Positions 13,690 through 48,944 of a stretch of 64,000 nucleotides of DNA are shown piece by piece. Made by a program: the position numbers and the translations under genes. The stretch is taken from NCBI GenBank assembly GCA_021772055.1, contig JAETNR010000004.1, forward strand, positions 89,424 to 153,423, in the 5' to 3' direction. Numbering within the stretch: the stretch's first letter is position 1; each line of letters starts with the position of its first letter. The DNA is from Blautia sp. Its GTDB lineage: Bacteria > Bacillota > Clostridia > Lachnospirales > Lachnospiraceae. The notes under the pieces were generated by a model. The model had not been told where the DNA came from, did not search any database, and was given only the letters and a program-made list of their open reading frames with translations.

Positions 13690-14193
13690 ATGAAAGAAAA
13701 GCTTAGAGTTGGATTAATGGTTCTTCTGGTGCTCACCCTTCTGGCTATGGCGGGAGGATTCTGGACCTTTGTAGGAGTACAGGCAGAAAAAGAAAAGGCT
13801 GCCGAGCTGGTCGAAAATGCAGGGCAGGCAGAAGAGGAGGGCGGAATCGAGGCCATGTTTATTCCTGTAGGCACCCAGGGCGATTCCTGGATGTTTGCTG
13901 ATGAGAACGGGCTGTTTGAAGCAGAGATACCGGAGGGAGAGCTTTATAATGAAGCAGGTGATAAGATTACTGCAGAGGAGCTTTATACAGGGGATGTATT
14001 GAAGATTTACGGAAATATCATTTCCACCAGGAGCCTTCCCCCACAGTATTCCGGCATCGAAAAAATGATCCGCATCCGCAGGGGAACCGTAGAAGATGCG
14101 GCCCCCTATTCCACAGAAATACAAAAATATACGGGGAAACCCATCTGCGCAAAGGAGAGGGAAGATCGTTCTCTTTTGGAGGAAAAGAAATAG
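13690..14193 (+). CDS. Membrane-anchored small extracytoplasmic protein (hypothetical)
   Basis: 167 aa. The N-terminal transmembrane or signal-anchor segment is 'VGLMVLLVLTLLAMAGGFWTFVG' (residues ~7-29). The outside part is acidic, with a beta-rich region 'EELYTGDVLKIYGNIISTRS' and 'GIEKMIRIRRGT' that resembles OB-like domains in small Firmicutes lipoproteins and anchored proteins (DUF3221-like); this is a weak similarity by eye. There is no lipobox Cys. It starts 50 nt after the YhaN-like gene with AAAGGATCG before the ATG. A small perfect palindrome (TGTCTGC-TGAT-GCAGACA, 13647-13664) lies in the gap. A bidirectional terminator follows. Confidence 0.65.
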   Translation: MKEKLRVGLMVLLVLTLLAMAGGFWTFVGVQAEKEKAAELVENAGQAEEEGGIEAMFIPVGTQGDSWMFADENGLFEAEIPEGELYNEAGDKITAEELYTGDVLKIYGNIISTRSLPPQYSGIEKMIRIRRGTVEDAAPYSTEIQKYTGKPICAKEREDRSLLEEKK

Positions 14194-14235: not shown

Positions 14236-15420
14236 TTATTTTTCGTATCGTGCCATATAGTTGCTGACACAGCGTTTGATCCTGTCTACCGGGTTGAGCA
14301 GATGGCTTACAGATAAGTCATGGTTCAGTGTGTCAATGATCAATGCGATATATTTGCTCATGTCACAGCTGATGTAATACTTTTTCTCAAGGAGCTCCGG
14401 ACTCTGGTAGACCAGATTGGTGGTAAGGAGCTTGTCAAAGACACCCTGCTCGTAGGCTTCGTCAAATTTGTCCATTCCGTCAGTGAAGATGCCGAAGGTA
14501 GCACAAATATAGATCCTGCCCGCACCTCTTTCTTTTAGAAGAGAAGCGATCTGGAGAATCGTACCGCCGGAGGAAATCATGTCATCGATCAGGATCATAT
14601 CCTTGCCCTGGAGCTTCGGTCCGAGGAATTCATAGGCTGCAATCGGATGGCGGCCATTGACACGGCGGGAATAGTCAAGACGCTTATAATACATCCCCAT
14701 ATCAACACCGAGGATATTGGCAAGATAAATAGCACGTCCCATACTTCCTTCATCAGGGCTGATGATCATAAAATGTTCATTGTCAATATGAAGTCCTTCT
14801 TCATGGTTTAAAAGAGCCTTCATAAACTGATAAGCAGGCTGTACAGTCTCAAAGCCGTGGAGAGGAGTTGCATTCTGGACACGGGAATCATGGGCATCAA
14901 AGGTAATGATGTTCTCAACCCCCATACTGGTCAGCTCCTGCAGGGCGGTAGCACAGTCTAAGGACTCTCTTCCGATACGTTTGCTTTGACGGCTTTCATA
15001 AAGATATGGCATGATTACATTGATCCTGCGCGCCTTACCGCCGATAGCGCCGATGACACGTTTTAAATCCTGAAAATGGTCATCCGGAGACATAAGGTTG
15101 GTATAAGGCCCCATCCGGTAAGTAAGACTGTAATTGCATACATCCACCATCACGTAAATATCATCGCCGCGGACGGATTCTGCAACAACGCATTTGCCTT
15201 CCCCGGAACCAAAACGGGGAGTCTCTACATGGATCTTGTAATTGTCACGCTGATATCCCTCGAAAGCGAAGGGATCAATGTAACTGTGGACTCTTTCCTT
15301 ACGCCACTGAACCAGCCAGTCATTCACTTTCTGGCCTAGTTCACTGCAGCTCTCAAGGGGAATCAGTCCAAGCCTTCCTACAGGGAGTGTAGCCAAATCT
15401 TTGGTATTTAACTGTGGCAT
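14236..15420 (-). CDS. prs: Ribose-phosphate pyrophosphokinase, long divergent form
   Basis: Makes PRPP from ribose-5-phosphate and ATP for nucleotide, His and Trp synthesis. At 394 aa it is longer than standard Prs (~315). The family marks are the flexible-loop region 'MPYLYESRQSKRIGRESLD', 'FDAHDSRVQNA' and the PRPP-binding loop 'MILIDDMISSGGTI'. Extra sequence lies at the N-terminus (~50 aa) and in the C-terminal third. The start ATG (15418-15420) has AGGAGG ten bases upstream within the last codons of dnaC; the gap between stop and start is three bases, so translation is probably coupled to the helicase loader. Confidence 0.88.
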   Translation of the reverse strand: MPQLNTKDLATLPVGRLGLIPLESCSELGQKVNDWLVQWRKERVHSYIDPFAFEGYQRDNYKIHVETPRFGSGEGKCVVAESVRGDDIYVMVDVCNYSLTYRMGPYTNLMSPDDHFQDLKRVIGAIGGKARRINVIMPYLYESRQSKRIGRESLDCATALQELTSMGVENIITFDAHDSRVQNATPLHGFETVQPAYQFMKALLNHEEGLHIDNEHFMIISPDEGSMGRAIYLANILGVDMGMYYKRLDYSRRVNGRHPIAAYEFLGPKLQGKDMILIDDMISSGGTILQIASLLKERGAGRIYICATFGIFTDGMDKFDEAYEQGVFDKLLTTNLVYQSPELLEKKYYISCDMSKYIALIIDTLNHDLSVSHLLNPVDRIKRCVSNYMARYEK

Positions 15421-15423
15421 TCT

Positions 15424-16413
15424 CTATTTTCCTCCTAAAAAAATTTTCTCAATGCGGATGTCCTTTCCAATCAGCTTTACCATGCGGTAATTGCTGGCAA
15501 TGCGGGAAAAGGTTCTTTCGGAATAAGTATCAGAGAAATCCTCCAGTTTCATATTGGTTGAAATAATGGTGGATTTCTGACGCATGATCCGCTCATTGAT
15601 GCACAAAAACAACTGGGACGATACAAAGCTGTTGGTAAGCTCTGTGCCAAGGTCATCAATGATCAAAAGGTCGCAGTCAAAAATAAAATTTTCTTCGTTG
15701 GTATGATCTGCTTTTTTGGAAAAGGCTGATCTGGCAAGCAGATCAAACAGATCGAAAGCAGAAAAATACAGGACACAGTGCGCACTCTTAAGAAGCTCAC
15801 CGGCAATACAGTGGGAGAGGAAAGTCTTTCCGACACCGGTATTTCCATAAATAAACAGATTCTGGAAACGGCTGTCAAATTCCTTCACAAAGCACGTCGC
15901 TGCCTGATAGGCGTGAAGCGCCGTCTCTCTGGCAGTAAGTCCTGTAGCATCATTCTTTATTGTATCAGAATAACAGTCAAAAGAAAAGTGGTCAAAGTTT
16001 TCTTTTTCAAGAATTTCTTTGAGATTTGACTGGGCATAAAGGAGCTCAATCTCTGCTTTCTTAAAACAGGAGCATTTCCGGCTCCCGATATAACCGGTGT
16101 CCTGGCAATGGGGACAAACATACCGGGGTTCCAGGTAATCTGCCGGATAACCGCCTTCGTCAAGCAGTTCTGTACGCTCATGGGAGAGAACGGAAATCGC
16201 GGCTTTTAGATCCTCTACTCCGGGAGTGCCGCCTCCAAGGAGCGCACGGGCTTTGGCTGCGCTCAGGGACGCAACCTCCTCATCAATTTCCTTAAGCCGC
16301 GGAATTTCTCTGTAGACCGCCCTGCGGCGCTGCTCCAGGTCGTAGCGGCTCTGCGCCTGCCTGCGGCTGTATTCCCTCATAATGGTATCGTACTGATAAT
16401 TTTGTAAAGACAC
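15424..16413 (-). CDS. dnaC: Replicative helicase loader (DnaC/DnaI-like AAA+ ATPase)
   Basis: 329-aa primosomal ATPase predicted to load DnaB helicase. The N-terminal helical region (1-~110) is followed by a zinc-binding-like cluster 'CPHCQDTGYIGSRKCSC' (~112-130) as in DnaI-type loaders. The AAA+ core has Walker A 'LFIYGNTGVGKTFLSH' (~190), Walker B 'LLIIDDLGTE' (~248) and sensor 'IISTNMKLEDF'. The start is GTG at 16413 with GAAGGAG upstream. It sits 43 nt after dnaD and 3 nt before prs on the minus strand. Confidence 0.92.
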   Translation of the reverse strand: MSLQNYQYDTIMREYSRRQAQSRYDLEQRRRAVYREIPRLKEIDEEVASLSAAKARALLGGGTPGVEDLKAAISVLSHERTELLDEGGYPADYLEPRYVCPHCQDTGYIGSRKCSCFKKAEIELLYAQSNLKEILEKENFDHFSFDCYSDTIKNDATGLTARETALHAYQAATCFVKEFDSRFQNLFIYGNTGVGKTFLSHCIAGELLKSAHCVLYFSAFDLFDLLARSAFSKKADHTNEENFIFDCDLLIIDDLGTELTNSFVSSQLFLCINERIMRQKSTIISTNMKLEDFSDTYSERTFSRIASNYRMVKLIGKDIRIEKIFLGGK

Positions 16414-16456: not shown

Positions 16457-17545
16457 TTACTGGTTCAGCAAACGCTTCTCATATTCGTCAAAATTATATT
16501 CTCTCTGCTGGAAATTATTAAAACGGTTCGGCGCACTGCTCTGGGGTGTCCTGGGCTGCGCGGCCTTTAAAAGCTTGCGCTGCTTATGTTCTGCATCCAG
16601 CACACGAATGTCATCTAAAGTTTTGACTTTCTTTTTCATCCAACCTGTCAGGATCTTGTCTGCGTACTGGAAGCTGGGCTGGCCGGTCTGGAGCACGGTC
16701 CTGCTGCAGGCCTCCTGGATCAGATCCATGGTAAAACCGAAATCCTTAAGCCATTTGTCCATCAGGACGATCTCGCTGTCAATGGGGTTGCGGCTGCTGA
16801 TCCCAAGGGCCTTCAGGATGGTAAAATATTCTTTGCTGTAGCGGGAGTTGGCCTCCTTGGCCATCTGAACCGTAGTGATGCCGGCTTCTGCCCAGGCAAG
16901 CGCCACAGTCTCAATATAACGGATGCTCTTATGGTTCCGGCTGACGCAGTATTCGATCAGATATTCGATCAGATCGGCAGAAAGGCTGAGACCGTCATAA
17001 AAGAAGAGAATCTTCTGCATTTCTGTGGAGGTCAGGGTTTTCCCGAGGTATTGTTCCGCAATGTAGAGAAGCTGGACAATATCTTCATTCTGCTTCAATT
17101 CCTGGATCCGGTCGGGGGTGAGGGCGGAAGGCTCGGGCTTCGGCTGGGAAGCATCTGCCGGATATTGCGGGGCCTCCCGGATCTCTATACTTTCAGAGGA
17201 AACAGGTTCTGTTTCTTTTGTATATGAGAAAGAAGATGCGGGAGTGCCGTTTATGGCCAGAATCGTAATTCCGCACAGCGTTTTCTCAGCGTCGTAATCC
17301 AGGGAAATCAGCTCCTGCTTTACCCAGTATTTCAGCGCACGAATCACGTCCCGCTCTGTACAGAGCAGGTTGTCAGCCATTTTCTCCAGGCTGAAGGAAA
17401 TGGGGGCATTGGAGAGCATTCGCACAAGGTAGATATAAACCTTCACAAATTCCCCGTTTGCTTCCGGCATGAAACGGTCGATAAAGTAATTGGACAATAC
17501 CGTAACTTCTGCTTTGGAAGAATTATGTAATGTAATCATATTCAT
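16457..17545 (-). CDS. dnaD: DnaD-domain primosome protein
   Basis: Replication-initiation/restart protein that helps recruit helicase and loader. It has ~360 aa. The N-terminal winged-helix region ('LSNYFIDRFMPEANGEFVKVYIYLVRML', 'RDVIRALKYWVKQELISLD') is followed by a DnaD-type domain pair around residues 155-330 ('EQYLGKTLTSTEMQKILFFYDGL', 'AWAEAGITTVQMAKEANSR', 'KILTGWMKKKVKTLDDI'). The C-terminus is polar and basic. The track starts at a GTG (17554); ATG 17545, nine bases inside, has a better upstream GAGTG and is used here. It leads a dnaD-dnaC-prs transcription unit whose upstream region carries a cluster of DnaA boxes. Confidence 0.87.
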   Translation of the reverse strand: MNMITLHNSSKAEVTVLSNYFIDRFMPEANGEFVKVYIYLVRMLSNAPISFSLEKMADNLLCTERDVIRALKYWVKQELISLDYDAEKTLCGITILAINGTPASSFSYTKETEPVSSESIEIREAPQYPADASQPKPEPSALTPDRIQELKQNEDIVQLLYIAEQYLGKTLTSTEMQKILFFYDGLSLSADLIEYLIEYCVSRNHKSIRYIETVALAWAEAGITTVQMAKEANSRYSKEYFTILKALGISSRNPIDSEIVLMDKWLKDFGFTMDLIQEACSRTVLQTGQPSFQYADKILTGWMKKKVKTLDDIRVLDAEHKQRKLLKAAQPRTPQSSAPNRFNNFQQREYNFDEYEKRLLNQ

Positions 17546-17635
17546 GAATATCACTCGCTTTCAAAATCCATTTGCTAAGTGCTCACATTATAGCACAACC
17601 ATTTTCAAAAGAGAACCACTTTTTTCCTGCACAAT

Positions 17636-17902
17636 TCATCCACATTCTGAATGTGGATAATGTGGATAATGTGGAAAGAGAATTTCCTCCAATGATTATT
17701 GCAAACCTTTCAAAACCTGCAGAAATCAAGAATTTTGGAAGAAAATGAAGAATTTTGACGAAATAGAATGGAGAATTATGTCAATCATATATTGTGGAAA
17801 AGAATCCACAAAGAGTGGGAGGAGGAAATGTGTATAAACCTGTGGATAATGTGGATAACTATGGTGAAACCCGATAAATACGGACTTTTTGAATGTGTAT
17901 AA
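17636..17902. promoter_or_regulatory. DnaA-box cluster upstream of dnaD
   Basis: TGTGGATAA, the exact complement of the TTATCCACA DnaA box, occurs at 17652-17660, 17661-17669, 17841-17849 and 17850-17858: two head-to-tail pairs 189 bp apart. One-mismatch boxes are TCATCCACA (17636-17644), TGTGTATAA (17829-17837 and 17894-17902) and TGTGGAAAA (17793-17801). The surroundings are AT-rich. This 450-bp gene-free stretch (17546-18002) also holds the murC terminator. It may be DnaA-controlled regulation of dnaD-dnaC or a DnaA-titration site; neither dnaA nor dnaN is nearby. Confidence 0.8.
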
Positions 17903-17910
17903 AAAAATTT

Positions 17911-17951
17911 AAAAAAAAGCCACTGCCTGTGTAAAAAACACAGGTAATGGC
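17911..17951 (-). terminator. Terminator of murC
   Basis: On the minus strand GCCATTACCTGTG pairs with CACAGGCAGTGGC across a T-rich loop and is followed by eight Ts. It lies 52 nt past the murC stop. Confidence 0.85.
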
Positions 17952-18002
17952 TGAAAAAGGCGGATGGTAGCAATGGTTCGGCCGAGACGGAACCATTAGG
18001 AT

Positions 18003-19382
18003 CTACTGCCCAAGGAGATGCTCTCCTATCTTAACCACGTCACCGGCACCCATGGTGATGAGCAGATCTCCCCTGGTACAATGTTCCAGAAGGTAGTTTT
18101 CAATCTCATCAAATGTGGAAAAGTATTCGCAGGGAGTTCCCAGAGCCCGGATCTGTTTCATCAGATCTTCTGAGGAGATTCCCAGAGTATCCGTTTCACG
18201 TGCAGCATAAATATCTGCCAGTACCACATGATCCGCAAGGGTAAGGGCCTTTGCAAACTCCGGAAGGAGCGCTTTTGTGCGGGAATATGTATGGGGCTGG
18301 AAAACGCACCAGGTTGTCTTGTGGGGATAATTCTTCGCTGCATGAAGGGTTGCCTCAATTTCGGTAGGATGATGGGCATAATCATCAATGATGGTGACGC
18401 CGGCCACCTCGCCCTTATGCTGGAAACGGCGGTCTGTACCTGTAAAGCCGTTGAGGCCTTCCGTAATATCCTGCTCTCTGATATTCAGGAGCTGCGCCAC
18501 TGCAATGGAGGCAAGGGCATTGGAAACATTGTGGATTCCGGGAACCTTCAGGCTGAAATGTCCGACCGGCATACCTTTGAAAAGTGCAGTAAAGGATGCG
18601 TGCCCGAATGCATCATAGGTAATGTTGCTGGCAGTATAGTCTGCTTCTCCTTCCAGACTGTAGGTGATAACCCGGCAGGGCAGATCTTTGATGATCTTTT
18701 CATAAGCAGGCGTATCCTTGTTGATGACCAGAGTTCCGTCTTCAGGAAGAAGCTCTGCAAATTTGCGGAAGGAATGGCGGATATCCTCAATATCTTTAAA
18801 GAAATCCAGATGGTCAGCGTCAATGTTCAGGATCACACTGATCTTCGGGAAAAAGCTTAAAAAGCTGTTGGTATACTCACATGCTTCCGTTAGGAAGGTT
18901 TCGGATCGGCCGACACGGATATTGCCCCCAATGGCAGGAAGAATTCCGCCTACACTGATGGTAGGGTCACAGTTTCCTGCCAGAAGAATGTGGGAGATCA
19001 TGGATGTTGTCGTGGTTTTTCCGTGAGTACCGGAAACGGCAATGGGGGTATGGTAGTTGCGCATAATCTGGCCCAGAAGCTGGGCGCGGGTAAGCATGGG
19101 AAGCCCTTTTGAGGCTGCACAGGCAAACTCCGGATTGTCCGGATGAATGGCTGCGGTATATACTACCACCTGAACAGATTCTTCTATATTAGATGCACGC
19201 TGCCCATAAAAAATCCTGGCGCCGCGTTCTTCAAGAGCTTTGGTCAGGGGGCTTTCTTTGGCATCGGAACCGGAAACGGTAAAATTCTCTTCCAGAAGGA
19301 TTTCCGCAAGACCGCTCATGCTGATGCCGCCGATGCCAATAAAATGGATGTGCAGCGGTTTATGAAAGTCTATCTGATACAT
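18003..19382 (-). CDS. murC: UDP-N-acetylmuramate--L-alanine ligase
   Basis: ATP-dependent ligase that adds the first amino acid (L-Ala) of the peptidoglycan stem peptide, in the cytosol. 459 aa, normal for MurC. The N-terminal UDP-binding Rossmann domain has 'HFIGIGGISMSGLAEIL', the central ATPase 'VSGTHGKTTTTSMISHIL' (P-loop), 'LTEACEYTNSFL' and 'ILNIDADHLDFF', and the C-terminal domain 'IDDYAHHPTEIEATL' and 'FQPHTYSRT'. ATG 19382 follows AAGGAG with nine bases between. It is a single-gene unit with its own terminator; palindromic element B lies 95 nt upstream, between it and the divergent MATE gene. Confidence 0.97.
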   Translation of the reverse strand: MYQIDFHKPLHIHFIGIGGISMSGLAEILLEENFTVSGSDAKESPLTKALEERGARIFYGQRASNIEESVQVVVYTAAIHPDNPEFACAASKGLPMLTRAQLLGQIMRNYHTPIAVSGTHGKTTTTSMISHILLAGNCDPTISVGGILPAIGGNIRVGRSETFLTEACEYTNSFLSFFPKISVILNIDADHLDFFKDIEDIRHSFRKFAELLPEDGTLVINKDTPAYEKIIKDLPCRVITYSLEGEADYTASNITYDAFGHASFTALFKGMPVGHFSLKVPGIHNVSNALASIAVAQLLNIREQDITEGLNGFTGTDRRFQHKGEVAGVTIIDDYAHHPTEIEATLHAAKNYPHKTTWCVFQPHTYSRTKALLPEFAKALTLADHVVLADIYAARETDTLGISSEDLMKQIRALGTPCEYFSTFDEIENYLLEHCTRGDLLITMGAGDVVKIGEHLLGQ

Positions 19383-19476: not shown

Positions 19477-19642
19477 GGGCGGTCTGCATTTCACTGGGCA
19501 GGGAAGGGGCTGCGGGGCGGGGAAGGACACCTGTCTTAAGAGTGCTGCGGTTTCTAAGGCTCCTGCAAATGCAGCGCTCTTAAGACAGGTGTCCTTCCCC
19601 GCCCCGCAGCCCCTTCCCTGCCCAGTGAAATGCAGACCGCCC
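19477..19642. repeat. Palindromic element B: 72-bp inverted arms
   Basis: Arms 19477-19548 and 19571-19642 are reverse complements with a single mismatch in 72 bp; the loop is 22 nt. It contains the same ATTTCACTGGGCAGGGAAGG and GACACCTGTCTTAAGAG blocks as element A. It lies between the divergent murC and MATE genes. The two ORFs called here (19387-19653 and 19436-19645) read the palindrome from opposite strands and are not genes. Confidence 0.95.
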
Positions 19643-48266: not shown

Positions 48267-48944
48267 AGGGATGGTTTGCAGAAGGATACTTCGAAAATGT
48301 TCCAGTTCTTCTAACGAGTAGCTGCAAAATCCAGGCTGCAGGACTTCCGGGGAGTCTTTGTAAGCCTGGAGATAATAGGATCTGGCTCCTGCAAGCCACT
48401 GGCCGATCTCTAAGAAATCCTTTTCTGTATGCAGTTCTTTCACAACGGTAGTACGGAATTCATAATCCACAGGCTCTTTCATGAGGAAATCCACACTTTC
48501 CTGTATAGGCTCAAGATTTGGATATTGAAGTCCTGAAAGGGTTCCGTAATTTTCGGGACAAGCCTTAATATCCATAGCAATTTTATCCACAAGCCCTCTC
48601 TGCACCAGGTCCTTAATTACAGAAGGACGTGAACCATTGGTATCCAGCTTGATGGAATATCCCAGCGCCCGTATTTTCTCCAGAAATTCATCCAGTTCCG
48701 GGCTTAAAGTAGGTTCGCCCCCGGTAATGCAAACTCCCTCCAGAATTCCACGACGCTTTTTTAAAAAGGACAGAACTTCCTCCTGGGAAATTTCAGGTTC
48801 TTTCCCTGCGTGAAGAACCAGGGAACTATTATGACAAAATGGGCAGCGGAAATTGCAGCTTCCAAGAAATATGGTGGCCGCCACCTTTCCTGGATAATCC
48901 AGCAGAGTTGTTTTATTTAATCCACATATTTTCACAGTAATCAT
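48240..48944 (-). CDS. nrdG: Radical-SAM activating protein, anaerobic RNR activase type
   Basis: 234-aa radical SAM enzyme. The 4Fe-4S motif is CxxxCxxC in 'FLGSCNFRCPFCHNSS' near residue 30, followed by 'GVCITGGEPTLSPEL' (the GGE motif) and 'IKLDTNGSRPSVIKDLV'. The start 'GLNKTTLLDYPGKVAATIF' is characteristic of the NrdG2-type activase (anaerobic ribonucleoside-triphosphate reductase activation), as opposed to pyruvate formate-lyase activase. The reductase gene (nrdD) is not in the window, so the partner is inferred. The ATG at 48944 has AAGGA directly against it; a GTG four codons in has better spacing. The 3' end overlaps a convergent gene. Confidence 0.85.
   Translation of the reverse strand: MITVKICGLNKTTLLDYPGKVAATIFLGSCNFRCPFCHNSSLVLHAGKEPEISQEEVLSFLKKRRGILEGVCITGGEPTLSPELDEFLEKIRALGYSIKLDTNGSRPSVIKDLVQRGLVDKIAMDIKACPENYGTLSGLQYPNLEPIQESVDFLMKEPVDYEFRTTVVKELHTEKDFLEIGQWLAGARSYYLQAYKDSPEVLQPGFCSYSLEELEHFRSILLQTIPLVEIRGID

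Follow-up and report, generated by a model that had tools for sequence, protein, structure and literature searches.

The window analyzed here is a stretch of 64,000 nucleotides from a genome whose nearest named relatives are Blautia. On its minus strand, it contains murC (18003..19382; TIGR01082, 477.7 bits), followed by dnaD (16457..17554; TIGR01446 DnaD_dom and PF07261), for which a GTG start is annotated at 17554 and a conserved ATG is found at 17545. Downstream of dnaD, on the same strand, are a dnaC/dnaI-like helicase loader gene (15424..16413; NF005304 ATP-binding protein; the DnaI and DnaC profiles match less strongly) and prs, encoding phosphoribosylpyrophosphate synthetase (14236..15420; NF005299); the profile matches bear out the order dnaD-dnaC-prs, downstream of a group of DnaA boxes, that was given in the original prediction. 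Between positions 14000 and 19600, there is no Rfam match, i.e., no known RNA element. A near-perfect inverted repeat lies upstream of murC (19477-19642), with two 72 nt arms that are 99% complementary and 22 nt apart.

The interval between murC and dnaD contains four exact copies of the DnaA box TGTGGATAA on the plus strand (starts at 17652, 17661, 17841 and 17850; span of 207 bp), arranged, as had been predicted, in two end-to-end tandem pairs, 189 bp apart. The left pair, at the murC side (17841-17849 and 17850-17858, plus strand; TTATCCACATTATCCACA on the dnaD strand), is kept in relatives; the right pair (17652-17660 and 17661-17669, plus strand) lies 59 bp upstream of the dnaD -10 element. 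Where at least three one-mismatch boxes had been predicted, four flank the exact pairs: TGTGTATAA at 17829..17837 (plus strand), which is the third left box, 3 bp past the left pair; TGTGTATAA at 17894..17902 (plus strand); TGTGGAAAA at 17793..17801 (plus strand); and TGTGGATGA at 17636..17644 (minus strand), with the orientation opposite to the others. The number of exact boxes on both strands of the window is 5, compared to 0.55 predicted and a maximum of 3 in 100 shuffles; in the 450 bp upstream of dnaD, it is 4, compared to 0.0098 predicted and a maximum of 1 in 5000 shuffles. The chance rate of one box per approximately 130 kb per strand that accompanied the original prediction is really that of both strands together. 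Thus, several boxes lie close together, outside oriC and above chance, as in a DnaA-box cluster (DBC). The fifth exact box of the window stands alone at 48583-48591 on the minus strand, and one-mismatch boxes occur at 48463 and 48918. The whole genome (4.64 Mb) contains 113 copies of TGTGGATAA, compared to 15 of the same pattern read backwards.

For the comparison across genomes, loci were sampled by DnaD or MurC similarity, and boxes were never a selection criterion. It should be noted that the family sample leans toward genomes with better DnaD scores, a bias softened by the addition of 20 more divergent genera, that the counts overstate the number of independent events because the loci are related by descent, and that a few genomes entered under two locus numbers (e.g., L064 and L222, both from G020). 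Each of the 29 Blautia loci contains 2-5 exact boxes; one or more are found in 60 of the 70 family-wide loci (the window's own included) and in 15 of the 20 more divergent genera, so that 75 of the 90 sampled genera of Lachnospiraceae have at least one in the murC-dnaD arrangement, and some genera of the family sample have no exact box upstream of dnaD. A second, named collection has boxes in 71 of 78 loci, and the same arrangement, with boxes between murC and dnaD, occurs in six sister families of the order. Among 26 other Clostridia loci, almost all outside the order, neither an exact box within 700 bp upstream of dnaD nor an upstream murC was found. Over 126 dnaD upstream regions, we counted 317 exact boxes, compared to 0.66 in shuffles, and an exact tandem pair in 72, compared to none in shuffles. 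In 98 of 99 loci, dnaD is preceded by murC on the same strand; this synteny is nearly absolute, and where the two genes seem to be split, in G081 and G044, contig ends are the likely cause. The boxes are therefore kept across Lachnospiraceae, and the dnaD promoter is conserved along with them, rather than being kept while the boxes are lost, which is the outcome that would speak against the original prediction.

Outside Blautia, the pairwise identity of the two box pairs is 0.93 and 0.91, and that of the spacer beside the right pair is 0.316, compared to 0.295 expected from composition. These values bear on the explanation that the boxes, without any role for DnaA, are a side effect of common ancestry and of terminator palindromes. 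The richness of the genome in this word and the nearly absolute synteny are in line with such an origin, but neither nearly identical pairs next to a spacer near chance in different genera nor the almost complete lack of boxes in shuffles would be expected from it, and we consider this explanation very improbable. The boxes between murC and dnaD almost certainly constitute a selected DnaA-box element.

The original prediction overlooked the polarity of the boxes, a second conserved motif and the terminator of murC. On the dnaD strand, 314 boxes read TTATCCACA, and only 3 are in the opposite orientation. The prominent start-to-start spacings are 9 and 12, with 0 bp between the boxes inside tandem pairs and a third box 3 bp from the left pair in 56 of the 80 loci with both clusters. 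Most often, no more than a few bases separate the start of the left cluster from the murC stop codon. In the same 80 loci, the distance between the left and right clusters is 165.7 bp, with the standard deviation of 13.5 (189 in the source genome), whereas the flanking distances are loose (standard deviation of 70 for murC to the left cluster, and 67 for the right cluster to dnaD). Hence, between the clusters, length is kept where sequence is not. Inter-cluster and box-to-(-10) distances look stepped by approximately 9-11 bp; we do not claim helical phasing because the 9 bp tandem repeat and common ancestry confound these steps.

The second motif, TTnACATAA, was detected in 58 of the 126 upstream regions, compared to 4.2 in shuffles, and between the clusters in 54 of the 80 loci, where its usual distance from the left pair is 61-62 or 73-74 bp; in the window, the instance TTGACATAA (17776..17784, minus strand) is 74 bp from the start of the left pair. 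We consider this motif a candidate site for a partner protein. Several other assignments were tried. As a degenerate DnaA box (TTATGTnAA), it would have at least two mismatches to TTATCCACA, which we judged unlikely; as a -35 element, it has no matching -10 that could be discerned by eye; and the Spo0A box words TTCGACA and TGTCGAA, which stand beside the motif in some loci, are present in 14 and 6 of 121 intergenic regions, compared to 2.4 and 1.3 expected, a modest excess. Ahead of dnaA, too, a word of the form TTnACRTAA precedes the first DnaA box by 11-12 bp (L352, L356, L359, L360), and the motif may be more widely linked to DnaA clusters.

The promoter of dnaD consists of a -35 region TTCTCT (17610..17615, minus strand) and, 17 bp away, a -10 element TATAAT (17587..17592, minus strand) in the extended context TGTGCTATAAT; across loci, the conserved elements are TATTCTC and TGCTATAAT. 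The assignment rests on this conservation because a generic promoter scan gives no call at this position. In 91 of 109 loci, 40-110 bp separate the -10 from the nearest box upstream, and the right cluster usually lies in this range too; that is, the boxes lie at a preferred, conserved distance, as in a DnaA-regulated promoter. Even murC-dnaD gaps of only approximately 120-150 bp retain a box, in most cases with 42-54 or 77-89 bp between it and the downstream -10. The right pair is farther away, at 115-156 bp from the -10, in several loci of the families f72 and f73. The regular box-promoter distance supports promoter control, and with the right boxes lying upstream, activation or repression through a loop would be a better fit than a simple block of the promoter.

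In 61 of 113 loci, both arms of the best hairpin close to where murC ends contain the box core, and a T run follows. Beyond the six-base core, 312 of 426 stem positions are paired, compared to 217 (standard deviation of 7.2) when the arms are dealt anew; outside Blautia, the numbers are 219 and 136 (standard deviation of 6.9). Because pairing beyond the core exceeds that of the re-dealt arms, the stem is under selection at the RNA level while its foot stays a DnaA box. In relatives, the left cluster thus combines a stem-loop, a T run and compensating changes, as an intrinsic terminator does. The window itself, like part of the Blautia lineage, has a dedicated murC terminator instead, a hairpin with a T run at 17918..17952 (minus strand; -21 kcal/mol, z of -6.33), and the box stem, whose 3' foot in relatives corresponds to TGTGGATT on the dnaD strand (17803..17810, minus strand), is here short and decayed and folds weakly (z of -1.61). 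Nonetheless, the left boxes are exact, which separates their role in DNA from the terminator. It can be proposed that the main role of the element is insulation, with DnaA on the box-containing terminator as a roadblock that keeps murC transcripts from reaching dnaD; the covarying stems, the one-way orientation of the boxes and the DnaA roadblock termination in E. coli, as cited in PMC11317965, are all compatible with it. However, the right cluster is outside any terminator, and in the window's lineage, the left boxes are still exact where a separate hairpin ends murC; we regard insulation as an improbable main role.

Rearranged loci supply single cases pointing both ways. In L223, an inserted stretch has parted the two genes, and the boxes are found on the dnaD side; exact boxes are missing where murC and dnaD touch or almost touch (L058, L137, L247). 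Together with the boxes kept in short gaps, these observations were counted in favor of dnaD control, as were the precedents in E. coli (PMC11317965) and Caulobacter (PMC8203912). Counted against it were G164, in which dnaD has moved elsewhere without exact boxes while four exact boxes remain behind murC, the lower spread of the inter-cluster distance compared to the distance to dnaD, the remote right pairs of f72 and f73, and the genera with no exact box. The module is tied to the murC-dnaD junction, not only to one gene.

The strongest rival explanation is pure titration, i.e., the main role would be titration or inactivation of DnaA, like that of the B. subtilis clusters or of E. coli datA, with the two clusters forming one complex that sequesters DnaA and delays initiation, and dnaD would be a mere neighbor. 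It owes this standing to the inter-cluster spacing, fixed over an unconserved spacer, to G164, and to further recurring clusters. Tandem box pairs are found beside an hpf-like gene, mostly next to secA (L172-L174, L176, L177, L187, L190, L191; gene names from translations), and beside an NlpC/P60-type peptidase gene and trmB (L179-L183, L188, L189, L072 5722-5834); in the source genome, the latter site (C46:65722-65833) is the only exact tandem pair outside murC-dnaD. Furthermore, in 14 genomes with both genes on one contig (G200, G236, G250, G203, G227, G242, G194, G160, G070, G117, G156, G026, G036, G004), dnaD is 138-708 kb from dnaA, and in B. subtilis, clusters outside oriC delay initiation, which is advanced by their removal (PMC5295017). 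Conversely, pure titration does not predict boxes at a preferred distance from the dnaD promoter or the boxes of L223 that stayed with dnaD, and their loss where genes abut is unexpected for a free-standing titrator, although lack of space could explain it. Titration as the main role is possible but, in our estimate, doubtful. Judging by match strands, transcription of dnaD opposes the replication fork in 12 of the 14 genomes, which is unusual for an essential operon.

The same distances to dnaA bear on the explanation that the site is a second or former replication origin, for which the tandem DnaA boxes adjoining AT-rich DNA could be taken as a sign. The GC skew, a check proposed along with the original prediction, is positive overall across the window and shows no reversal at the boxes, placing the site away from the origin; an origin would be expected at a skew switch next to dnaA. 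On another contig, dnaA has an oriC-like cluster of its own upstream (5 exact boxes in 220 bp), and the boxes there are of mixed orientation, in contrast to the one-way boxes analyzed here. On the grounds of skew, dnaA location and polarity, we reject this explanation as hardly tenable.

Taken together, the module most likely tunes dnaD-dnaC-prs transcription and also titrates DnaA, and we lean slightly toward predicted DnaA control of the dnaD operon as its main role. We infer DnaA binding, looping and regulation of dnaD as follows. DnaA would load in one orientation on two clusters approximately 166 bp apart, one near the end of murC and the other just upstream of the dnaD promoter, and the bound complex would tune dnaD-dnaC-prs transcription to the DnaA status of the cell, probably by contacting RNA polymerase from upstream or through a loop between the clusters. 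In many relatives, the left boxes would double as the feet of the murC terminator, keeping the operons apart, and several DnaA molecules would of necessity be occupied by the site as a whole. The original prediction had offered either DnaA feedback on the primosome genes or titration. The box-promoter distance supports the former in part, the feedback itself being deduced, and promoter control cannot be the whole story because the inter-cluster distance is fixed and G164 keeps boxes after murC without dnaD.

A literature search for DnaA boxes in Lachnospiraceae yielded no relevant paper, and no description of a DnaA element at murC-dnaD was found. By analogy, the element resembles the B. subtilis DnaA-box clusters and the DnaA-regulated promoters of E. 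coli. Like the B. subtilis DBCs (ywlC, ywcI-vpr, gcp, yqeG-sda and others), it has several intergenic boxes away from oriC, at more than one locus per genome and in some cases beside promoters; unlike them, it has two one-way clusters at a conserved spacing, a box-built terminator and TTnACATAA. The top 20 DnaA regions of B. subtilis include none at dnaD, dnaB-dnaI or murC, and such a feedback is thus absent among the strongest regions of that species (PMC4447404). E. coli DnaA, a regulator of replication and nucleotide genes, favors double boxes with 2-3 bp between them, and in the left cluster, box 2 and box 3 are separated by such a spacing, of 3 bp (PMC11317965). The nrdA, mioC and purH promoters of E. 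coli similarly have close same-direction boxes upstream of replication or nucleotide genes, whereas the module differs from these double-box promoters in the 0 bp inside its tandem pairs, which is outside the 2-3 bp optimum, in having two clusters, and in the genes concerned. The E. coli datA locus, which contains an IHF site, is also comparable in that DnaA boxes surround a possible partner site, at a distance of several hundred kb from oriC. The E. coli asnC roadblock terminator, cited in PMC11317965, shares DnaA boxes at a transcript end but differs from the module, in which the box core is inside an intrinsic terminator stem with covariation. In Caulobacter crescentus, dnaB and dnaQ belong to the DnaA regulon, and boxes are predicted before dnaB, the replicative helicase gene (PMC8203912); there, the gene encodes the helicase rather than DnaD and the loader, and the lineage is unrelated.

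A more far-reaching reading is that of an order-wide replication-control module, in which the two one-way clusters at their conserved spacing, the box-built terminator and a partner protein bound at TTnACATAA would form one complex that times initiation and sets helicase-loader supply. We consider it unlikely. At the origin, DnaD and the helicase loader come into play immediately after DnaA, and if DnaA controls their operon across this major group of gut bacteria, initiator activity would be wired to the supply of the loader. Thanks to the conserved spacing and TTnACATAA, the architecture can be tested by mutation, and the clusters that recur at murC-dnaD, hpf-secA and NlpC/P60-trmB may serve as a starting map of a DnaA regulon of Lachnospiraceae.
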